Positions 4,258-62,259 of a stretch of DNA of 64,000 bases are shown here, piece by piece; positions within the stretch are counted from its first letter, which is position 1; each line of letters opens with the position of its first letter. The translations under genes were made by a program, and so were the position numbers. Source of the stretch: Lewinella sp. 4G2 (GTDB lineage Bacteria > Bacteroidota > Bacteroidia > Chitinophagales > Saprospiraceae); NCBI RefSeq assembly GCF_001625015.1, contig NZ_LVWJ02000014.1:868001-932000 (forward strand), read 5' to 3'. Under the pieces are notes generated by a model. It had not been told where the DNA came from. It saw nothing but the letters and a program-made list of their open reading frames with translations, and did not search any database.

Positions 4258-5127
4258 TCAGTCCTCGATGGGGCCACCGATGTCTTCCTCATACTCTTTC
4301 TGCGCGCGTTTGGCCACGAAAATGGAGATTTCGTAGAGGGAGTAAAGTGGTACGGCGATCAAGATCTGCGTCACGATATCCGGCGGTGTCATCAGGCTGG
4401 CCAGGATCAAAATACCGATGATGGAATGCTTACGGTATTTCCGCATGGCCGCTGCCGTCACCAGCCCGAAGCGGGCCAGGAAGTAGATCAGCACGGGTAA
4501 TTCGAAGATGACCGCAGCTGGCAAGGTGAACATCGTCATGTAGCCAATGACGGAATCCATCGTCGGGATGTTGGCCGCGCCACCCACGGTAAAGTTGGTC
4601 AGGAAGTACATCCCGAAGGGCGCCACCACGAGGAAGCCAAAACTTATACCAATAAAGAACAGGATGGAACAGATCAGGATCACCCACCGGGTAGCCCGCT
4701 GCTCCTTCTCGTATAGACCCGGGCGCACGAAGGCCCAGAACTCATAAAAAACGTACGGAAAGGCAATCACGAACCCACCAATGAACGCCATTTTCACCGC
4801 CGTAATGAACTGCTCCCCCACCCCAATGGCTTGCACCAAAATATCTTCCTCCGGCGCAATGCAAAGGTTGCCACCCGTAAGTTCACAGATCACCTCATAA
4901 CTGATGAAGTCCGTCTTTAGTGGACCGAACAGCACCCGGGCGAAGTACCAATCCCGAAATAAAAAGAGCACAATTCCACCCAGCACGATGGCCACGAGGC
5001 TGCGCACCACGTGCCAGCGTAATTCCTCGAGGTGGTCCACGAAGGACATCTCCTTATCCTCGGGTGGTTGGGGCCGGCCATTCTCGTCCAGCTCCCAATC
5101 GTCAACGTTCATTTGGTCCAGCGGCAT
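4258..5127 (-). CDS. tatC: Twin-arginine translocase subunit TatC
   Basis: 289 aa, the usual size for TatC. This inner-membrane receptor binds twin-arginine signal peptides and works with TatA to move folded proteins across the membrane. Visible hallmarks are the N-terminal cytoplasmic SFVDHLEELRWHVVRS (residues about 28-43), six hydrophobic helices, the P-G-L-Y-E-K-E-Q loop after helix 2 (about 137), and the conserved FELPV in helix 4. The ATG at 5127 is used; an in-frame Met five codons later is an alternative. A copy of the dispersed 20-bp motif lies 15 bp upstream in gene orientation, and a TACTTTTG box lies about 100 bp upstream. Its neighbours include a Tat-signal lipoprotein (8575-9222), a plausible client. 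No tatA is seen in the window. Confidence 0.96.
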   Translation of the reverse strand: MPLDQMNVDDWELDENGRPQPPEDKEMSFVDHLEELRWHVVRSLVAIVLGGIVLFLFRDWYFARVLFGPLKTDFISYEVICELTGGNLCIAPEEDILVQAIGVGEQFITAVKMAFIGGFVIAFPYVFYEFWAFVRPGLYEKEQRATRWVILICSILFFIGISFGFLVVAPFGMYFLTNFTVGGAANIPTMDSVIGYMTMFTLPAAVIFELPVLIYFLARFGLVTAAAMRKYRKHSIIGILILASLMTPPDIVTQILIAVPLYSLYEISIFVAKRAQKEYEEDIGGPIED

Positions 5128-16876: not shown

Positions 16877-17212
16877 GGGTGGGCGGTTAGTGTAGTCAGG
16901 AACGCTAGGATTTGAATGAGGTAAGGATCGATTGGCTGGGATAGTTGAGTTTGGGAAATACGTAAACACAGAAAACATAAAAACCACAGAGTGGATGAGC
17001 GCCGCCGCTCTATTCTCCTTAATCCTCTTTGTCATCCTAAACTTCTTGTCGAAAAACTACCAAGATGATGACTTCGTACTCCCTCCACAGTAAGCGGTCG
17101 GTTTACGTAAAACAATCGTCCAATAATCACGTAGGAGAATAGACCAGCTGCGGTGTTGTAAGAAATACGGCCAATGGCAAACCCATACCGCATGTTTCGT
17201 CTTTAACCCTCC

Positions 17213-26766: not shown

Positions 26767-27759
26767 CTAGGGCACTTCTACGACGTTGAGGACGCGGGCG
26801 ATAATGTCCTCCTGCTTGATGTTTTCCGCTTCGGCTTCGTAGCTGAGGCCGATCCGATGGCGGAGCACGTCTTCGCAGACGGAGCGGACGTCCTCCGGCG
26901 TCACGTAGCCACGGCGTTCGAGGAAGGCCTGGGCTTTGGCGGCCAGGGCGAGGTTGATGCTCGCGCGCGGGCTACCGCCGAAGGTGATGAGTGGTTTGAG
27001 GTCGCTCAGCCGGTAGGCTTCCGGTTCGCGGGTGGCGAAGACGATGTCGATGATGTAGCGTTCGATCTTGTCGTCCATGTAGATATTCCGCACGCTGTCG
27101 CGGGCCTTCAGGATCTCCGCCGTAGTCGCCACGGGGTTCACCTTTTCGAAGCCCTGGCTGATGTTGCGGCGCATGATTTCGCGTTCGTCCTCCCGCGTCG
27201 GGTAGCCGATGGTGCACTTGAGCATGAAACGGTCCGTCTGGGCTTCCGGCAGCGGGTAAGTCCCCTCCTGTTCGATGGGGTTCTGGGTGGCGAGGACGAG
27301 GAAGGGCTCTTCCAGTTTAAAGGTTTCGTCACCAATCGTTACCTGCCGTTCCTGCATCGCTTCGAGGAGGGCGGATTGCACTTTGGCCGGCGCCCGGTTG
27401 ATCTCATCCGCCAACACGAAGTTGGCGAAAACGGGCCCTTTGCGCACGGTAAAATCGTTCACGGCCTGGTTGTAAATCATCGTTCCGACGATATCCGCGG
27501 GCAGCAGGTCCGGTGTGAATTGGATGCGGCTGAAGTCGGCCGAGATCGTCTTCGCCAGCGTGTTGATGGCCAGCGTTTTGGCGAGTCCGGGCAGCCCTTC
27601 CAGCAGGATGTGCCCTTTGCTGAGCAGCCCGAGCAGCAGCCGGTCCACCATGTATTCCTGCCCGACGATCACCTTGGAGGTCTCCTTACGGATCCGGTCC
27701 ACGACCTCGGAGTCGATGGCGATCTGTTGGTTAAGGGCGGCAATATCTACGGTGGCCAT
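26767..27759 (-). CDS. MoxR-family AAA+ ATPase
   Basis: 330 aa. Walker A in LLEGLPGLAKTLAINTLAKT (about 53-72), Walker B FVLADEINRAPAKVQSALL (about 115-135), sensor 1 LVLATQNPIEQEGTYPLPEA (about 158-177), arginine finger region DRFML, then the AAA lid ending with EDVRSVCEDVLRHRIGLSYE. MoxR ATPases act as chaperones for VWA-protein complexes, often with DUF58 and Bat proteins. Here no DUF58 is adjacent; the Bat-type genes are at 51.5-56.8 kb. It is convergent with kdsD (48 bp between stops). A copy of the 20-bp motif lies 76 bp upstream in its leader. Confidence 0.95.
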   Translation of the reverse strand: MATVDIAALNQQIAIDSEVVDRIRKETSKVIVGQEYMVDRLLLGLLSKGHILLEGLPGLAKTLAINTLAKTISADFSRIQFTPDLLPADIVGTMIYNQAVNDFTVRKGPVFANFVLADEINRAPAKVQSALLEAMQERQVTIGDETFKLEEPFLVLATQNPIEQEGTYPLPEAQTDRFMLKCTIGYPTREDEREIMRRNISQGFEKVNPVATTAEILKARDSVRNIYMDDKIERYIIDIVFATREPEAYRLSDLKPLITFGGSPRASINLALAAKAQAFLERRGYVTPEDVRSVCEDVLRHRIGLSYEAEAENIKQEDIIARVLNVVEVP

Positions 27760-27835
27760 GGGCGGATTTTTGTCTGGGGTGTGCGCGAAAATAAGGTTTC
27801 CTGCGTCTTTGCCCGAAACGCTCTATAAGGTGTTT

Positions 27836-27855
27836 TGGGCGCTGCCGCAGGTGCA
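27836..27855 (-). repeat. Dispersed 20-bp motif upstream of the MoxR gene
   Basis: Minus-strand TGCACCTGCGGCAGCGCCCA directly preceded by TTACCT, so the merged string TACCTTGCACC resembles a -7 box running into the motif. It is 76 bp before the start at 27759. Confidence 0.75.
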
Positions 27856-28130
27856 AGGTAAGGATAAGGGGGGAGGGATTGGGATCGACCTTTATTGGCT
27901 GGACTGTAAGGGCTCCTTTAATAATTTGCTCAATAGCTGATGGAAGAAAAGTGCTTACGGTACTACCTTAAATCATTGAACTGCAAGGGACGCCCGTGGC
28001 GGACTCAACACAAAAGGCAAAAAAACTCAAAAAAGGCGATGCCGTCCGTATCCAATCTTCTACTCTTCCTTACCAACTTATATTTCTTGTCGCTAATGGA
28101 GGATTATAATCCACACTTCTTAATCGTCTC

Positions 28131-29031
28131 TATCGCCCAATACTTCTTTGCGAAACTAAAAAACAGGCGGAGCCACAATCAAACTTTGAGCTAATAGCTG
28201 TCCACGCATGTTTCGCCAAGAGGATCAAGATGTTTGAGACGAAAGAGAAGGACGATACCGGCTTCTCTCCCCTCTCTATCGCCCTATACTTCTTTGCGAA
28301 ACTAAAAAGCAGGCGGAGCCACAATCAAACTTTGAGCTAATAGCTGTCCACGCATGTTTCGCAAAGAGGATTAAGATGTTTAAGACGAAAGAGAAGGACG
28401 ATACCGGCTTCTCTCCCCTCTCTATCGCCCTATACTTCTTTGCGAAACTAAAAAGCAGACGGAACTACAATCCAACTTTTAGCTAGTAGCTGTCCACGCA
28501 TGTTTCGCAAAGAGGATCAAGATGTTTAAGACGAAAGAGAAGGACGATACCGGCTTCTCTTCCCTCTCTATCGCCCTATACTTCTTTGCGAAACTAAAAA
28601 GCAGGCAGAGCCACAATCCAACTTTGAGCTAATAGCTGTCCACGCATGTTGCGCAAAGAGGATCAGGATGTTTAAGACGAAAGAGAAGGACAATACCGGC
28701 TTCTCTCCCCTCTCTATCGCCCTATACTTCTTTGCGAAACTAAAAAGCAGGCGGAGCCACAATCCAACTTTTAGCTAGTAGCTGTCCACGCATGTTTCGC
28801 AAAGAGGATCAGGATGTTTAAGAAGAAAGAGAAGGACGATACCGGCTTCTCTCCCCTCTCTATCGCCCTATACTTCTTTGCGAAACTAAAAAGCAGGCGG
28901 AGCCACTATCCAACTTTGAGCTTACAGCTGTCCACGCATGTTTCGCAAAGAAGATCAAGATGTTTAAGACGAAAGAGAAGGACGATACCGGCTTCTCTTC
29001 CCTCTCTATCGCCCTATACTTCTTTGCGAAA
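28131..29031. repeat. Tandem array of 146-bp units, six full copies and a partial
   Basis: Units begin with TATCGCCC at 28131, 28277, 28423, 28569, 28715, 28861 and (partial) 29007, exactly 146 bp apart each time. Every unit carries CTTTGCGAAAC (for example 28292-28302) and, about 53 bp later, GTTTCGCAAAG (28356-28366). It also has an AGAGAAG / CTTCTCT hairpin around GACGATACCGG. Copies differ by scattered point changes (for example GTTGCGCAAAG near 28649). Since 146 is not a multiple of 3, reading frames shift each unit; the short frames across it are not conserved proteins. It sits in the gap between moxR and the 137-aa/DUF4132 genes. The stretch 27856-28130 before it holds nothing recognisable. 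Confidence 0.95.
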
Positions 29032-29103
29032 TAAGTAAAGCGTCTACCCAACCTAGCGGCAATGCAAGAAGACTAAAATAATTCACTTTTTAGTTACATA
29101 CCA

Positions 29104-29134
29104 TTGTAGAATACTCAAATAAAGTATATATTTG
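29104..29134 (+). promoter_or_regulatory. Promoter for the 137-aa gene: TTG plus TATATTTG
   Basis: TTG at 29104-29106 and TATATTTG at 29127-29134, spacing 20 bp. This is an exact TAnnTTTG box at the spacing expected for Bacteroidota sigma factor. Predicted start near 29141, leader about 70 nt. It lies about 100 bp after the 146-bp array. Confidence 0.6.
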
Positions 29135-29208
29135 TTTCGTCGCTAGCTATTCAACACCAATTTGTTGTTACTCCAGCGATAGAATAACCCTCCCTTCAAC
29201 TTCATCCC

Positions 29209-29622
29209 ATGCAAGCCATCTCCATTCAACTCAAGCGACTTGGTAAGAAGAAGATCCGGCGGATAGATTACGAGTTGCCACCGGTGCAGGACCTGCGGGG
29301 ATTGCTCGAGGCGATCGTCCGGCAGGAGGTAGCCAAGTTTAATGCTAAACGGGAAGAGGTACAATTGATGCCCTTTCTCACACCGGGAGATATCGAACGG
29401 CAATCCCAGGACGGCAAGGTGGGCTTTGGTGACATCGCCAACCGCAATCTCGCGGAGGTCGAGCAAAGCATCGAGACCGCATTGCTGGCTTTTAAGGATG
29501 GTCTTTTCATCGTCTTCCATAATGACGTCGAGCTCCGTTCGTTGGAAGATCCGGTCACCCTGACGGAAGACAGCGAACTGGCTTTCTTGCGGATGACGTT
29601 TTTGACGGGGACTTTTTGGTAG
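29209..29622 (+). CDS. Unknown 137-aa protein preceding the DUF4132 gene
   Basis: 137 aa, soluble, no signal peptide. Begins MQAISIQLKRLGKKKIRRID with a strand-rich start resembling a ubiquitin-like or beta-grasp layout (IQLKRLG, then YELPPVQDLRGLLEAIVRQEV). Then follow VQLMPFLTPGDIERQSQDGK and a FKDGLFIVFHNDVELRSLED segment, and the C-terminus LTEDSELAFLRMTFLTGTFW. No family recognised. It has its own promoter and lies 146 bp before the 1675-aa DUF4132 gene in the same direction, so it may act with it (inference by proximity). Confidence 0.8.
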   Translation: MQAISIQLKRLGKKKIRRIDYELPPVQDLRGLLEAIVRQEVAKFNAKREEVQLMPFLTPGDIERQSQDGKVGFGDIANRNLAEVEQSIETALLAFKDGLFIVFHNDVELRSLEDPVTLTEDSELAFLRMTFLTGTFW

Positions 29623-29628
29623 TTTATA

Positions 29629-29697
29629 GTCTGTAGTCTATGGTCTACAGTCTGTAGTCGGCAGTCCCGCACTACAGACTATAGACTACAGACTATT
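29629..29697. repeat. Short palindromic repeat island TAGTCTGTAGTCTA
   Basis: Direct and inverted copies of AGTCTGTAGTCTA-like words on both arms (TATAGTCTGTAGTCTATGG ... CTACAGACTATAGACTACAG), able to fold back on itself. It fills the gap between the 137-aa gene and the next motif copy. Confidence 0.65.
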
Positions 29698-29710
29698 GAC
29701 CCTTTACCTC

Positions 29711-29768: not shown

Positions 29769-32700
29769 ATGATCACATCGGAACAGGCGGATAAAGTATT
29801 TAAGGCGAATAAGGCGGCGGCACGAAAATTTTCCGTGTCGGACGTATTTATGGGCCGGTATAAGGAGTTGAGCGCCATCATTCGTAAGGGGTACCGTTTG
29901 AAGGGGAAGCGATCTCCAAAACAAGCTTATCTGGAGCATTTTCGGGCGGAGGAGAACCCTTGGGTGAGCTCTACCGGGGAGCGACTGGCCGAAGCACTCT
30001 TTGGGGAGCACGGCGCAGTTCACGCCAGCCGCGCCTGGGAATTACTGGGGCAGTTGCCCTACCAGACGGGGTACAGCCGCCGTCCGTTTCGATCCTCCGC
30101 CGCCGTGCATTCGCTGGAGAGGAAACTGAATTTCTTCCACCAGTGGGCCCAGGCTTGTGAGCAGGGGTTCCACCCGTTTACGGTAGCCGATACGATGCGA
30201 TACGCCGTGTACTACAGCCGGGAGACCACCGCCTTCAGCCCAATGATTGCCGCCGCTCTGGAAGCGGAGGGGCCACGGGGAGAGCTGCACGAACTGGCCT
30301 GGGACATCCTCCAGGGAGAAGACGAAATTGGTGCCGTAAACCGCGCGTTGATCCAGGGCCTACTGATGACCGACCAGCCGGAAAGCTGGGAAATGGTGGA
30401 AAAATTATTACTCGCCGCCCAGCGGGAAGAAGGTCTGCGGCAGACCATTTTTGAAACCGTAGACGAAGGCCACATTGGTGCCTTCCGCCACTTCATCGAA
30501 TTGATCCGGACACACGATCTGGCCCGCTTCAGTTCTGTCATCCGTGGCGTGGACGTCTGGTTTGGTTTCGGCTGGGAAGCCCCGAAGAAAAAGACGATCA
30601 ACCGCGCACTGGAGATCGCGGCGGCGTGCCTGCAGGACGTTGAGGCGACCAACCGCTACGCAAATTCTAAGGATAGCCTGGAGTTTTACGTGGCCTTGTG
30701 GTCCGTTGCCGTGCAGAACGTGCTCAACGTACTGCCGACGGCGGCCGACATCATTCTGAAGGGCAACCGGACCCAACAGCTTGGTGCGTGTTATTTGATG
30801 ATCCAAACCGGTTACAGCCACGATAGCATCAGCCAGTATTTCGAGGGGCAGTTTGGGCAGGATATCCTGTTGGACTATTACGTGACGCGCATCATGCCGG
30901 ACGACACGCCGATCAGCGACCAGATGATGGAGCAATTGATCGCCCACGCTCAGTCGCTACCGAAGGATGGAAAAACCTACGAATCTGGCGTCTTCGAATG
31001 GATGGCCCCGAAGCTTACGCCCGAATACTTCTACGACTTCCTGATCCGGGAGGGGCAGGACCACCAACGTCACCGTTTGGCGGAGGACCTGTCCGCCCTG
31101 CCGAGTAATTCCCGGGAGTCGCTTCTGCGCAAGTTGTTCCCCGACCATTATACCTGGTCGATGCGCTACGACACCAACAAGAATCGCAAGCCGATCGCGC
31201 CGGCCGACCAGGGGTGGACGCGCAAGGTCATGCACCAGGCAATTACCGACCGGAACACCTCCGTGATGGCGACGGGGTTAACGCTGCTCCGGTCCGTCCC
31301 GCTAACGGACACCGACGTGGAAGTCGTCACCGGCCTGCTCAAGCGAAAGGGGAAGGACCTACGCGGCTCGTTGATCCAACTCATCCTCGCCCAACAGGAA
31401 CCAAAAATCAAGGAATTCGAGAGCCGCTTGCTACAAGCGAAAACCGTGGACCAGCGCCTGGCGGGCCTGGAAGTCCTTAGTGTACTGAACGAACGGGGCG
31501 CCATGCCGGAGTACGTTGCAACTAGCGTGGCGACTTACCTCGAACGGGGTACTTTTTCCAAGAATGAATCCGTCCTGCTGGAACGTTTCAACCCGCCAGA
31601 AGAGCGGGATACCTTCTCGATAGCGAACGGCTTCGGGGTGGTGGATTACGATAATGTGCGTCCGCTGATCACACCACAGTTGAAGTTTAAGGCACCATCG
31701 TCCGGTGGGCTCCTCAGTAAAGTATTCGGAACCCGCCAGGTCTTTCTCTTCGCCAAGTTCGTGGATGCGGCTAAAATTCGGAGCGCCATCGAGGGCCTGG
31801 CCGCCGTCGTACGGGAGAACGCGACTTACGAGTACACGAGCGTTTATAATGATAGTTACGAGGAAACGTTCCTGTTACAGAACGCCATCAACCTCTTGCG
31901 GCCCAACCATACCTTTACCGCTCCGGTAGACCGGGTCAATGACCTGCCCCTCGCCGAAAAGTGGAAAGCCTGGTACGATGGTTCCGGCCTCAACGATTTT
32001 GAACTGCTCTTCCTTTACGCTTACCTGAAGGGGAAAGGCGGCAACATCGGTAAGACCTGGTACCGGCAGCTGCGGGACCAGTACTACCCCGAGATCAAGG
32101 ACGTAGACACACTGGTGGGCGAGCGGGGTGCCTGGGATACCCTGCGCAGTAACCTGTCAACCGTTGCCCACGCCTTTTACTACGCCTACGCGGACCTGGC
32201 CACGCTTGATCAATTCCAGGTCGATATGCTGGAAGATATGCTCGCCCGCTGGCCCAATGATCAACGGCGTAACATCACGACTAAATCCCGGTGGGGTTAC
32301 GATGAGACTTCCAAGTGGGTAGACCTAGTTACCCGACTTCACCCGGGCGTCTACAGTTGGCAGCCCCACGACCGTGGTCTGGGTACCGCGGAGCCAGCGA
32401 CCCTGAGTCAGTATTATGATTTAAACCAATTGATCTTTGCGGCCTCACGCAGTAGTGCCTACCCGCCGCAACCGCTGCACGAAACGATCAATACCCAACA
32501 GCACAGTGGCTACTACTCACGCAGTAGAGGAGATACCGTACTCGCCAGACTACTGCACAAACGCGGGAGCATAACGGCGGACGAACTACTCGTCCACGCC
32601 CTCATCGATTCCCATTTCCTGGGAAGTCTCCACAACGCCGAGGCCATCAACGCCAGGAATACGAACCCCACCGACCCGTGGCCGGAGGGTTTAGTGGATG

Positions 32701-34796
32701 ACCTCGCCGTCAACCTGCTCGCCGTCGAGTTGGACCGGGGCGACCTCGCCACCGAAGCCACGCCGTACACCAACAGCCTCAAGCGAGTGGAAGGTGCTAA
32801 TTACCTCGTAGAGCTAGCCGCGCGGATGGGAAAGGAAACCCTCCACCGGGGCTACAGCTACGGCAACGATACGACGCGCAAAGAGAGCTTCAGCGCCCTC
32901 ATCAAAAAGACCGTCCCGACGGAGGTGGACACGGTGGAAAGCTTCAACCAACAAGCCCGCGCCGTAAAGGTGACCGACAAACGCTGGTTGGAGATCGCCA
33001 TGTACGCCCCCCAGTGGGCCACGTGGATCGGGGAGATGTTGAACATCAAGGACTTGGAATCCGCCGTCTGGTGGTTCCACGCCCACGCCAGCGAATATTC
33101 CAGTGAGCAGAAGGCCGGTATCGTTGCCCGGTACAGCCCCATTGAAATGGCCGATTTCCGGGAGGGCGCCATCGACATCGACTGGTTCGCGGAAGTGTAC
33201 GATGCCGTCGGGAAGAAGACCTGGAAAATGCTGCACGACGCGGCGAAGTTCGTCACGGACGGAAATGGCCACCGCCAGGTTAAACTCTACTCCGGCATCA
33301 TGCTGGGCGAGACCAAGATCACCGAGACGCTCAAAAAGATCAAGGAGAAGCGGGATAAGGTGTACGTGAAAGGACTTGGGCTCGTCCCCCTCAGCAAGAA
33401 GATCCCGCGCAAGGATACCCTGAAGCGGTACGAGCTTTTCCAGCAATTCCTCCACGAGAGCAAGCAGTTTGGCAACCAGCGGCGGGAAAGCGAAAAGAAG
33501 GCCGTGGAGATCGGCATTGAAAACCTGGCCCGAAACGCAGGTTACAGCGACCCCGTCCGCTTCAGCTGGATCATGGAAGGCCAGGCTACCCGCGCCATTA
33601 TGGAAGAGTCCGTAGTGGAGATCGACCAGACGCAAGTCCGGTTGGTGATCGACGATTTTGGCAAAGCCGATATCCTGGTCACTAAGGCCGGGAAGAGCCA
33701 GAAGTCCATCCCCACCAAACTGCGAAAGCACAAGGACATTCTCCGCCTTAAGGCACACAAGGCTAAGTTGCGGAAACAGTACAGCCGGACCCTCAAGTCC
33801 CTCGAGCGAGCGATGGTGGACGGCCAGACCTTTACCGTGGAGGAGATCGCGGAGATCAACGACCACCCCGTGGTGAAGACGCTACTGGCGAAGCTCGTTC
33901 TCTTTCACCCCGAAAAGCAACTGACGGGTTTCTGGGCCCACGGCATGCTCATCGACGTAACGGGTAAAGCCCATGAGCTGGGCCGGGACGAAGTCGTCCG
34001 CATCGCCCACCCTACGGATCTCTACGCCACCGTGCAGTGGGATTTGTTCCAGCGGTACGCCTTCGACGAAAAGTTGGTGCAGCCCTTCAAGCAGATCTTC
34101 CGGGAGCTGTACCTACCTACGGCGAATGAGCGGGAGGAGCAGTACAAATCCAGCCGTTACCAAGGTAACCAGGTGCAGGTGAAGAAGACCGTCGCCCTGC
34201 TCACCAGCCGCGGCTGGACGGTAGACTACGATTCCGGTCTCCAGAAAGTGGACTACAAACGCGGCGTTGTCGCCTCCCTCTATGCCATGGCCGACTGGTT
34301 CTCCGCCGCTGAGATCGAAGCACCTACGTTGGAATACGTGGCCTTCCACAGCCGTTCGCACTACCGCGCCGTGGGGCTGGACGAGATCGATCCGATCCTC
34401 TTCAGCGAAACGATGCGAGACGTGGACCTGGTCGTCAGCGTCGCTAACGCGGGGCAGGTCGATCCCGAAGCGAGCCATTCCAGCATGGAGATGCGGGCTG
34501 CTCTGGCGCGGGAATCCGCCCGGCTCTTCCGCTTGGAAAACGTGGAGGTGAAGGAGCGATTCATCGTCATCGACGGGCTGCACGGTACCTACTCAATCCA
34601 CCTGGGTAGTGGGATGGTGAGCAAGAATGGTTTGCAATTGGGCATCATCCCCGTCCATTCCCAGCACCGGGGGCGGGTATTCCTTCCCTTTGTGGATGAC
34701 GACCCGAAATCAGCGGAAATCATTAGTAAGATGAAGCTGCTGGCGGAGGATGACCGGATTAAGGATCCGACGGTGTTGGCGCAGTTGATGAAGTAG
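29769..34796 (+). CDS. Giant DUF4132-domain protein (YehI/MolR-like)
   Basis: 1675 aa, cytoplasmic by composition, largest gene in the window. The first about 1100 residues are helical, HEAT/ARM-like (for example LAGLEVLSVLNERGAMPEYV; LLHKRGSITADELLVHALID). The DUF4132 region lies at about 1230-1480: GYSDPVRFSWIMEGQATRA, VRLVIDDFGKADILVTKAGK, then a basic helix SIPTKLRKHKDILRLKAHKA. A conserved C-terminal part follows with AHGMLIDVTGKAHELGRDEV, RIAHPTDLY and SSRYQGNQVQVKKTVALL, ending in a stretch with SSMEMRAALARESARLF and HGTYSIHLGSGMV. The E. coli relative, recalled as YehI, is about 1200 aa and encoded with MoxR/VWA/SWIM proteins. Here the YehP-like VWA gene is at 14435. Biochemical role unknown in the family. 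Confidence 0.92.
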   Translation: MITSEQADKVFKANKAAARKFSVSDVFMGRYKELSAIIRKGYRLKGKRSPKQAYLEHFRAEENPWVSSTGERLAEALFGEHGAVHASRAWELLGQLPYQTGYSRRPFRSSAAVHSLERKLNFFHQWAQACEQGFHPFTVADTMRYAVYYSRETTAFSPMIAAALEAEGPRGELHELAWDILQGEDEIGAVNRALIQGLLMTDQPESWEMVEKLLLAAQREEGLRQTIFETVDEGHIGAFRHFIELIRTHDLARFSSVIRGVDVWFGFGWEAPKKKTINRALEIAAACLQDVEATNRYANSKDSLEFYVALWSVAVQNVLNVLPTAADIILKGNRTQQLGACYLMIQTGYSHDSISQYFEGQFGQDILLDYYVTRIMPDDTPISDQMMEQLIAHAQSLPKDGKTYESGVFEWMAPKLTPEYFYDFLIREGQDHQRHRLAEDLSALPSNSRESLLRKLFPDHYTWSMRYDTNKNRKPIAPADQGWTRKVMHQAITDRNTSVMATGLTLLRSVPLTDTDVEVVTGLLKRKGKDLRGSLIQLILAQQEPKIKEFESRLLQAKTVDQRLAGLEVLSVLNERGAMPEYVATSVATYLERGTFSKNESVLLERFNPPEERDTFSIANGFGVVDYDNVRPLITPQLKFKAPSSGGLLSKVFGTRQVFLFAKFVDAAKIRSAIEGLAAVVRENATYEYTSVYNDSYEETFLLQNAINLLRPNHTFTAPVDRVNDLPLAEKWKAWYDGSGLNDFELLFLYAYLKGKGGNIGKTWYRQLRDQYYPEIKDVDTLVGERGAWDTLRSNLSTVAHAFYYAYADLATLDQFQVDMLEDMLARWPNDQRRNITTKSRWGYDETSKWVDLVTRLHPGVYSWQPHDRGLGTAEPATLSQYYDLNQLIFAASRSSAYPPQPLHETINTQQHSGYYSRSRGDTVLARLLHKRGSITADELLVHALIDSHFLGSLHNAEAINARNTNPTDPWPEGLVDDLAVNLLAVELDRGDLATEATPYTNSLKRVEGANYLVELAARMGKETLHRGYSYGNDTTRKESFSALIKKTVPTEVDTVESFNQQARAVKVTDKRWLEIAMYAPQWATWIGEMLNIKDLESAVWWFHAHASEYSSEQKAGIVARYSPIEMADFREGAIDIDWFAEVYDAVGKKTWKMLHDAAKFVTDGNGHRQVKLYSGIMLGETKITETLKKIKEKRDKVYVKGLGLVPLSKKIPRKDTLKRYELFQQFLHESKQFGNQRRESEKKAVEIGIENLARNAGYSDPVRFSWIMEGQATRAIMEESVVEIDQTQVRLVIDDFGKADILVTKAGKSQKSIPTKLRKHKDILRLKAHKAKLRKQYSRTLKSLERAMVDGQTFTVEEIAEINDHPVVKTLLAKLVLFHPEKQLTGFWAHGMLIDVTGKAHELGRDEVVRIAHPTDLYATVQWDLFQRYAFDEKLVQPFKQIFRELYLPTANEREEQYKSSRYQGNQVQVKKTVALLTSRGWTVDYDSGLQKVDYKRGVVASLYAMADWFSAAEIEAPTLEYVAFHSRSHYRAVGLDEIDPILFSETMRDVDLVVSVANAGQVDPEASHSSMEMRAALARESARLFRLENVEVKERFIVIDGLHGTYSIHLGSGMVSKNGLQLGIIPVHSQHRGRVFLPFVDDDPKSAEIISKMKLLAEDDRIKDPTVLAQLMK

Positions 34797-34800
34797 TTCA

Positions 34801-34912
34801 GTTGCAATTATCAAGTTGCGAGTTGCAAGTAGCGAGTGTCGAGTATCGAGTTGCGAGTACTCGACACTCGCAACTTTATTCTCGCAACTCGATTCTTGCA
34901 ACTTGACACTGG
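34801..34912. repeat. Low-complexity palindromic island of GAGTTGCGAGT words
   Basis: Repeats of GAGTTGCGAGT, GAGTGTCGAGT and GAGTATCGAGT followed by their reverse complements (ACTCGACACTCGCAAC), able to form a long hairpin. Similar islands lie at 53302-53440 and 54258-54312. Positioned just after the DUF4132 stop and before trkA. Confidence 0.75.
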
Positions 34913-49135: not shown

Positions 49136-49731
49136 GGGGGGAATTTTGAGTGGACGGACATTATTTAGTGGAGGCCATGTGACGGTTTGTAGAGTGGGCC
49201 ACCTGACGGTGTGCCACCGCTAGGTAGGCCGGCCCTTCGGGACGGACAGTCTTGCAGCGCCGCAGGCCTCTCCTTCTCTCCAACCTCCCCCACTCCTGCG
49301 AAACCTATACTTGGCGGAATCGGTAAAACCTAACGGGCGAGTAGAGTGGGCCACCTGACGGTGTGCCACCGCTACGCAGGCCGGCCCCATCGGGACGGAC
49401 AGTCTTGCAGCGCCGCAGGCCTCTCCTTCTCCCCAACCTCCCCGACTCCTGCGAAACCTATACTTGGCGGAATCGGTAAAACATAACGGGCGAGTAGAGT
49501 GGGCCACCTGACGGTGTGCCACCGCTACGCAGGCCGGCCCTTCGGGACGGATAGTCGTATTGCGCCGCAGGCCTCTCTTTCTCCCCAACCTCCCCGACTC
49601 CTGCGAAACTTGTAGGTGTAAAACTTAGTTCCTCCATCTCCTCCTCTTACTCCCTGGCAACCGCCGGAGGCTTAACGCGGCCAGAGGCCACGTCTCCAGA
49701 ACCGCCGGCAACCTCCGGAGGCAACTCTTGC
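49136..49731. repeat. Three 152-153-bp tandem units plus palindromic tail
   Basis: No gene. Units marked by AGAGTGGGCCACCTGACGG start at 49191, 49343 and 49496. Each continues with GCCACCGCTA, then a GC-rich CGGGACGGAC segment, and ends in CTCCTGCGAAAC and TACTTGGCGG. The ends carry GCGAAAC as in the repeat elements at 28 and 62 kb. After them, 49657-49735 holds CCGCCGGAGG / CCTCCGGAGG palindromes. Confidence 0.85.
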
Positions 49732-53301: not shown

Positions 53302-53440
53302 AAGATAGGGAGTTGCGAGTGTCGAGTTACAATTGGCGAGTTGCAATTGGCGAGTGTCGAGTTGCAAGTATCAAGTTGCAAGTCTCGCTACTCGCAACTT
53401 ACTACTCGCAACTTGATACTCGCTACTCAATACTAACTCA
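53302..53440. repeat. GAGTTGCGAGT-type palindromic island
   Basis: Repeats of GAGTTGCAATTGGCGAG and AGTTGCAAGTATC, followed by complementary GCTACTCGCAACTTACT words, in the gap between the TPR and batD genes. Same word family as at 34801 and 54258. Confidence 0.75.
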
Positions 53441-54257: not shown

Positions 54258-54312
54258 TATTGGGACGAGTTGCGAGTTGCAAGTATCGAGTTGCGAGTAT
54301 CGAGTTGCGAGG
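54258..54312. repeat. GAGTTGCGAGT-type repeat run
   Basis: Direct repeats of GAGTTGCGAGT and AGTATCGAGTTGCG, in the gap between the esterase stop (54319) and the TPR start (54220). Confidence 0.7.
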
Positions 54313-61989: not shown

Positions 61990-62089
61990 GTTTCGCAAAG
62001 GAGACTAAGGCGGAAGAGAGGTTTAAGAAGCATGACGTGCGGTCACGACTTCTCTTTCGTCTTAAACATCTAATACTTCTTTGCGAAAC
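61990..62089. repeat. 100-bp palindromic element, copy 1
   Basis: Ends are an exact 11-bp inverted pair, GTTTCGCAAAG (61990-62000) and CTTTGCGAAAC (62079-62089). Inside lie GTTTAAG / CTTAAAC and a CGTG..CACG core, so the element can form a long imperfect hairpin. The right arm CTTCTCTTTCGTCTTAAAC matches the minus strand of the 146-bp units at 28 kb. Confidence 0.85.
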
Positions 62090-62159: not shown

Positions 62160-62259
62160 GTTTCGCAAAGGAGATTAAGGCGGAAGAGAAGTTTAAGAAG
62201 CGTGACGTGCGGTCACGACGTCTCTTTCGTCTTAAACAGCTAATTCTTCTTTGCGAAAC
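62160..62259. repeat. 100-bp palindromic element, copy 2
   Basis: Same length and ends as copy 1 (GTTTCGCAAAG at 62160-62170, CTTTGCGAAAC at 62249-62259) with a few base changes. It starts 170 bp after copy 1 and lies 15 bp past the ssb stop at 62275, so it may end that transcript. Confidence 0.85.

Follow-up and report, generated by a model that had tools for sequence, protein, structure and literature searches.

What does an exactly periodic array of 146-bp repeats do in front of a DUF4132-type gene of Lewinella sp. 4G2, and does it belong to that gene at all? The array was picked out in a first-pass annotation of 64,000 nucleotides of contig NZ_LVWJ02000014.1 (positions 868,001 to 932,000; this whole stretch is here called the window, and its numbering is used unless a locus handle is given). 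That annotation linked the array to the 137-aa and DUF4132 genes that follow it, and took its strict spacing as a sign of recent expansion or of selection.

The array consists of tandem inverted doublets

The array is located between two divergent genes, encoding a MoxR-type AAA ATPase and the 137-aa protein respectively, and ends 177 bp upstream of the latter (Table 1). Tandem Repeats Finder identifies a period of 146 at 28127-29031 (6.2 copies, 94% matches, 0% indels, score 1628), and the units align exactly 146 apart with constant length. The exact periodicity reported in the first-pass annotation was thus confirmed, the array proving even slightly longer than described. Its unit is a 93-bp inverted doublet (two 41-bp arms and an 11-nt loop) followed by a 53-bp spacer. 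The inverted words CTTTGCGAAAC/GTTTCGCAAAG previously noted in the unit are exact in 10 of the 13 arms, with one mismatch in each of the other three (28210, 28648 and 29022), and the AGAGAAG/CTTCTCT hairpin is likewise present. These observations support a non-coding tandem expansion of an inverted-repeat unit. Of the two explanations offered for the spacing, tandem expansion therefore stands, and selection is not needed because tandem duplication by itself keeps the period.

Each of the six doublets bears distinct substitutions. Within the array, substitutions were found in 8 of 383 conserved arm cells, 4 of 139 variable arm cells, 1 of 66 loop cells and 14 of 318 spacer cells; the counts are small and the comparison raw, and this is at most a weak hint that the conserved arm cells are under constraint. 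When folded as single-stranded DNA, one array doublet gave z = -3.9 against dinucleotide shuffles. For the whole 146-nt unit folding was only modest, with z of about -2 for the RNA of each strand and -2.6 for DNA. No Rfam match at gathering score was obtained in the window, and the array has no match in phage or plasmid collections. A CRISPR was rejected, as the spacers are copies of one another and the words are inverted.

A good promoter had been claimed to follow the array. A TAnnTTTG motif (29127-29134) with an upstream TTG at 29104 does occur between the array and the 137-aa gene, and we take TTG/TAnnTTTG to be the Bacteroidetes promoter type. A sigma-70 scan of 27700-29300 returned 2 sites against 1.7 expected, none of them in front of the 137-aa gene, so that the assignment rests on the presumed Bacteroidetes consensus. 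No intrinsic-terminator-like site was found in 27700-29300.

Table 1 Features of the array, its neighbourhood and related arms in the window. Each doublet of the array starts with the first base of its plus arm.
Feature	Position	Strand	Remarks
Solo D-type arm	17015-17055	-	Overlaps start of a predicted gene
MoxR-type AAA ATPase gene	26767-27759	-	Flanks array
ACACAAAAGGCAAAAAAACTC-like stretch	28008-28036	+	Similarity by eye
Whole array	28116-29032	.	13 arms: one leading minus arm and six plus/minus doublets, period 146
Leading arm, subtype A2	28116-28156	-	Distal part unlike the A2 arms within the array
Doublet 1	28210-28302	+	A1 arm 28210-28250 (+), loop 28251-28261, A2 arm 28262-28302 (-)
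Spacer, 53 bp	28303-28355	.	Co-amplified with doublet; also before doublet 1 and between later doublets
Doublet 2	28356-28448	+	Arm matrix and array alignment; folded as single-stranded DNA
Doublet 3	28502-28594	+	Arm matrix and array alignment
Doublet 4	28648-28740	+	Arm matrix and array alignment
Doublet 5	28794-28886	+	Arm matrix and array alignment
Doublet 6	28940-29032	+	Its minus arm closes the array; no spacer after
Promoter-like motif (TTG, 20 nt, TATATTTG)	29104-29134	+	Before 137-aa gene, downstream of array
137-aa gene	29209-29622	+	Flanks array; no Pfam match at E<=0.001
DUF5724/DUF4132/DUF7737 gene	29769-34796	+	Follows 137-aa gene; scanned in two pieces
Doublet, A2-type plus arm and A1-type minus arm	61990-62089	+	Arm matrix
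Second doublet, beside the 61990-62089 doublet	62160-62259	+	Arm matrix

Arms of the same family are dispersed in the genome

The 41-bp arm consists of a head, which is either GTTTCGCAAAG (type A) or TTTTC[GT][AG]CAAG (type D), plus variants, and a purine-rich body of 30 nt with a near-invariant phased G. The body can be written as ten triplets, roughly RAG NNW RAG RNG NNW RAG RNG NNW RAG RAG, with G at arm positions 11, 14, 20, 23, 29, 32, 38 and 41 in 153 to 157 of the 158 arms described below. Third positions of the body carry approximately 1.6 bits of information, compared with 0.8-1.1 for the others, and in several triplets bases one and two are highly variable.

A search of the genome (5.2 Mb, 21 contigs) with one unit yielded 96 matches at E<=10, many covering only unit positions of about 1-37 and 79-125, which correspond to the arms. 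A sequence-only arm model (R1) gave 149 matches at E<=1 among the best 150 of 2771 candidates, and at least 138 at E<=0.01 with the best 150 candidates scored. Using a weight matrix, we located 158 arms in 43 clusters within the window and 35 further stretches (382 kb in total), and none in mononucleotide-shuffled DNA; the matrix was trained and refined on the same stretches, and the count of 158 is not independent of it. As the stretches were chosen around earlier hits, with about 5 kb counted twice, the density is not that of the genome. Seven of the 158 arms score below 30. The arms are spread over at least three contigs, and their variable positions are diverse, unlike a recent burst from one master copy. 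The first-pass annotation had named a common genome-wide repeat with no expression as an outcome that would refute it, and in distribution the unit is indeed a common repeat.

Doublets, and arrays at other loci

The matrix hits include 54 tail-to-tail pairs, heads outward and separated by a loop of 5-27 nt, which contain 108 of the 158 arms. The other 50 are solo or same-direction arms, and 6 of the 43 clusters are a single arm. Types A and D mix: a D and an A arm may share one direction at a distance of 65-133 bp, D arms are found beside or around A doublets, and arrays are built of doublets of either type. The two arms of many A doublets belong to two subtypes (A1 and A2) with a recurring difference, as judged by eye.

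Paired arms agree at variable positions less than arms of different clusters do (0.34 versus 0.41; 0.3% of 2000 draws were as low). This lower agreement implies that there is no compensatory pairing, although the A1/A2 difference may contribute. Pairing at variable arm positions is not kept, and palindrome avoidance or a fixed left/right difference would each explain this. A hairpin RNA with covariation is hence unsupported by the comparison of paired arms. On their own, arms show hardly any folding: over 142 of them the RNA energy averages -2.6 kcal/mol and reaches -6.7 at the lowest. Three doublets of the genome fold as single-stranded DNA into long imperfect hairpins (z of -3.9, -7.8 and -3.9). 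Target-site duplications of 2-7 nt around the 54 doublets show no significant excess over shuffled flanks, the strongest length being 3 nt (3 seen, 1.0 expected, 8% of shuffles having as many) and other lengths lying at chance.

Arrays with other units occur in eight further stretches, with periods of 110-147. Alternating-orientation tandem arrays of 2.8 or more copies were found in the window and at five other loci (L013, L018, L020, L021 and L022). The whole window unit, including its spacer, has matches of 80-84% in the array at C14:538594-539309, and two pieces at the edges match at 88% over 82 bases and at 82% over 49; a unit has thus been copied between distant loci. Nine proteins encoded beside the five other arrays comprise RecA, RsmG, an SNF2 helicase, an ABC ATPase, a cytochrome c, a 6-phosphogluconate dehydrogenase-like protein, ThuA and two without a match, and the flanking genes are unrelated both mutually and to the DUF4132 module.

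Some heads are bordered on the outside by one more common word, GCTGCTCCTACG or in mirror form CGTAGGAGCAGC (L014:4082-4093 and 4270-4281, L022:4250-4261, L024:4422-4433), which looks as if another repeat layer encloses the doublet.

Position of the arms relative to genes

Genes were predicted with a simple codon-score caller trained on the same genome, and arms were divided into A and D by their head letters, so that a few mutated arms may be misfiled. Of the 71 D-type arms, 24 follow a gene's 3' end at no more than 40 nt and on that gene's strand, compared with 7.1% of random non-coding placements (binomial p = 6e-11 with arms treated as independent, which arms within an array are not). One further D arm is at a 3' end on the opposite strand, three are at 5' ends, and the remaining 43 lie more than 40 nt from any predicted gene boundary. 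The antisense strand of the D body contains about 42% C and 2.5% G over its 30 nt. For the 28 first arms lying 0-40 nt behind a stop codon, the distances modulo 3 are distributed 12/10/6, and no frame preference is apparent. A coding reading was rejected on the basis of this result together with the conserved third body position, the period of 146 and the presence of arms on both strands.

With arms divided into A and D by a slightly different rule, 15 of the 43 clusters are between convergent genes, 15 between tandem genes and 8, including the window array, between divergent genes. Copies are mostly extragenic, the other 5 clusters overlapping a predicted ORF and some such ORFs being weak.

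The closest congener carries a different version

Relatives of the 137-aa protein occur in six of the 21 genomes of the genus, and the only one found in the contig collection is from Neolewinella aurantiaca (49% identical), which makes Neolewinella, or a neighbour of it, the probable genus. By this protein (74% identical) the closest congener is the genome denoted G002. The arm model matches none of 20 congeners at E<=0.01 (best 150 candidates at most per genome), nor does the whole unit at E<=0.001. A degenerate arm pattern with up to 2 mismatches has 115 matches in the 4G2 genome and 0-6 in each of the others, most in G002. Indeed, G002 has its own version of about 20 copies, with the head GTTTCC[AG]GA[AG]G and a similar triplet body. 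A model of 18 G002 arms has 22 matches in G002, none in 4G2 and at most 2 in any other genome (best 150 candidates at most per genome). Of 18 arms in G002, 4 lie within 60 nt behind a 3' end on the same strand and 1 on the other strand, 4 are at a 5' side and 9 are at neither.

The orthologous intergenic region of G002 has the same gene order without the window array. Together with the unrelated genes beside the other arrays, this speaks against the proposed link to the 137-aa and DUF4132 genes: the array is accounted for without invoking its neighbours, and most likely it sits between the two divergent genes as a passenger.

We compared seven 4G2 sites (the window array and clusters 3, 9, 22, 31, 35 and 39) with their G002 counterparts by eye, mostly with synteny on one flank. 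Inverted pairs of CACAAAG-type arms are present in G002 at clusters 31 and 35, and one such arm without a clear partner lies in the counterpart of the window intergenic region, making three of the seven sites. At cluster 3 G002 bears arms of its own dialect, cluster 9 is rearranged, and nothing comparable was seen by eye at clusters 22 and 39. The G002 CACAAAG-type arms are found at L122:2160-2290, L101:1240-1420 and L035:2140-2230, and in L122 and L101 the inverted pair lies inside outer TTACGCA/TGCGTAAGGTCAGT-like ends. In 4G2 itself, the ACACAAAAGGCAAAAAAACTC-like stretch listed in Table 1 is perhaps a decayed CACAAAG-type repeat, such as the sister genome has in this same intergenic region.

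The motif CACARAG-N(1-3)-CACARAG occurs in 11 of the 21 genomes of the genus (36 copies in G001, 33 in G017, 25 in G018, 23 in G002 and no exact copy in 4G2), and CACARAG likewise recurs with a spacing of about 9 bp. With up to 2 changes allowed, copies are present in stretches of 4G2 (for example L031:13692 and L066:3873), so that the evidence falls short of a clean replacement between the CACARAG and arm families. Similar CACAAAG/GCAGAG palindromes occur in many bacteria; a literature search with four such strings found none in open-access text.

At one orthologous site 4G2 and G002 both bear an arm, in the same orientation and just upstream of the same gene. Five of 14 arm-bearing stretches of G002 map to arm-bearing stretches of 4G2, where about 1 is expected (an estimate from 7% coverage), but only one of the five is the same site, and we do not count the overlap as strong evidence. 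No precise empty site could be made out, the intergenic DNA of the congener being too diverged. In G015 (L104-L106), a few arm-like stretches with the head TTTGCCGGAAG or TTTGCCGGAGG were seen; these are perhaps a third version of the arm.

Further afield, 199 genomes of the family gave four marginal matches to the arm model (best 32 candidates at most per genome), which by eye look coding or low-complexity and were not accepted as arms. A phage origin was also rejected: seven viral contigs match the degenerate pattern once each, six of them scoring 10 or less by the arm matrix and the seventh (32.9) lying within an open reading frame, probably by chance.

Probable origin and possible role of the arm family

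We consider it probable that a dispersed extragenic element, specific to this lineage and resembling REPINs and BIMEs, has been amplified in tandem to give the array. The doublets would be mobile but non-autonomous, some cellular enzyme moving them, and the arrays may lengthen through slippage, through unequal recombination or by rolling-circle copying where repeats are inverted. More tentatively, a shared use, most simply as a transcript-end or antisense-blocking sequence, might lie behind the strictness of the body pattern and the location at gene ends. The arm family works like a REPIN or BIME without being classed as one, and we infer its movement. Several results speak against the REPIN/BIME-like reading: the search for a mobilising enzyme had no success, target-site duplications are not in excess, no precise empty site was made out, the variable positions are diverse, and 43 of the 71 D arms lie away from gene boundaries. 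REPs and REPINs have about 100 or more extragenic copies, usually as inverted doublets; here there are at least 149 by the model and 158 by the matrix, and doublets hold the majority of arms by raw count. Like BIME-2, the family forms tandem units with alternating repeats, in the window and at five other loci. It is nevertheless not filed as a true REP, because it has no GTAG/CGTC tag, the arms hardly fold alone and there is no copy near the six Y1 transposase genes. Searches of open-access titles and abstracts, subscription papers being outside their scope, found no description of the arm repeat.

Published systems offer partial parallels. REPINs, as outlined for Pseudomonas fluorescens SBW25, are REP doublets that form hairpins (PMC3116915). 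The likenesses to that outline are extragenic inverted doublets as the unit, tandem near-identical doublets including their flanks, near-copies of arrays at distant loci, and solo copies as possible remnants; unlike it, the arms here are 41 bp and not themselves palindromic, lack the REP tag, were found with no cognate RAYT, and include one type with a 3'-end bias (PMC3116915). BIME-2 arrays share the regular spacing, alternating orientation and several tandem units, whereas head and body differ here from the REPs in the part of the published table considered, and no RAYT is nearby (PMC2817692). Within the same phylum, the BrickBuilt element of Porphyromonas gingivalis is outlined as a repeat of intergenic regions that is confined to one species and combines inverted ends with a tandem portion, but its 23-bp tandem unit lies inside one element, with 19 elements in one strain, whereas here doublet plus flank form the tandem unit, in 43 clusters (PMC4596501). 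A possible parallel is offered by intrastrand triplex motifs, which in the outline given of them are repeated, prone to unusual DNA structure and abundant in some bacterial genomes (PMC4666352).

Among the other explanations, a function at gene ends is possible, at modest weight. The arms would then be Rho-use sites or hairpins stopping antisense or read-through transcription, an arm behind a stop codon presenting a C-rich, G-poor strand to transcription from the other side, and doublets would serve convergent genes. The single orientation of D arms behind 3' ends, the antisense composition, which is consistent with a Rho-use site, and the three well-folding doublets argue for this, as does one apparently identical convergent pair (left gene by search, right gene by eye) with inverted repeats of different families in both species. 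On the other hand, clusters are not mainly convergent, paired arms are less alike at variable positions and show no compensatory pairing, and the interval around the window array holds no terminator-like site. We retain the idea at modest weight because the 3' bias is weaker in G002 and the window array itself lies between divergent genes; if true, it has consequences for how these bacteria determine where transcription ends. A stronger form is doubtful, namely that these are undescribed gene-end elements of the Lewinella group: triplet-patterned, 9-bp-phased inverted arms that retain their body pattern between sister species, with a genome-wide exchange of the head dialect or of the whole family, at partly the same sites. 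Such a system for marking transcription boundaries, or for recognition, would turn over fast and co-evolve with an unknown protein.

Readings based on a known class of mobile DNA have less in their favour. A classical MITE, in which a DDE transposase moves what deletion has left of an insertion sequence and the arms are its terminal inverted repeats, is unlikely: the outward-facing heads, short non-coding interior, dispersed copies and recurring difference between the arms of A doublets would suit it, and BrickBuilt, described as a minisatellite-holding MITE, is a precedent in the phylum (PMC4596501), but the 54 doublets show no clear target-site duplication and nearly a third of the arms are solo or same-direction. 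The search for a parent element covered the Y1 family. A true REP/REPIN moved by the RAYT (Y1) transposase of the genome is decidedly unlikely, despite the copy number, the inverted doublets, the BIME-like arrays and six Y1_Tnp genes. None of the six has an arm within about 1.5 kb (stretches of 3.5-4.5 kb; best score 9.3, threshold 15), where REP copies flank the RAYT gene; single arms are not the 20-40 bp imperfect palindromes that REPs are (n = 142); the heads, GTTTCGCAAAG, TTTTC[GT][AG]CAAG and variants, carry no terminal GTAG or CGTC; and Y1 genes occur in 20 of the 21 genomes of the genus, the 4G2 arm version in one. A structured RNA finds neither an Rfam match in the window nor compensatory changes between paired arms. 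It is very improbable that the array belongs to the DUF4132 module, whether as multi-site regulatory DNA or as an RNA array, for which its place 177 bp upstream of the 137-aa gene speaks, since the closest congener lacks it upstream of the same genes, the family also adjoins unrelated genes and the array lies upstream of the likely promoter. An assembly artefact can hardly be credited: tandem repeats of such length can be mis-assembled in copy number, but the doublets differ from one another, the contig is 4.17 Mb long and related arrays occur at other loci.

The REPIN/BIME-like reading thus places in a Bacteroidota lineage a REPIN-like repeat population that shows neither the tag nor the adjacent RAYT gene of known REPs. 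What is most interesting lies outside the array coordinates, namely the phased pattern of the arms, their location at gene ends and the divergent version carried by the closest congener. This last lends itself naturally to comparison, as a way to ask what keeps the G phasing in place and what is responsible for moving or maintaining the repeats.

Other repeats in the window

A second, unrelated intergenic array is present at 49189-49609 (period 153, 2.8 copies, 94% matches). At its start it is similar both to the consensus of a 206-bp array (L022:6453-7243, G000:C14:1176952-1177742) and to an arm-adjacent stretch in L031. Heptamer-type low-complexity repeats (TAGTCTG, CGAGTTG, ACTCGCAACT and others), often as inverted neighbours, were also observed at 29639-29700, 34800-34906, 53315-53434 and 54266-54311.
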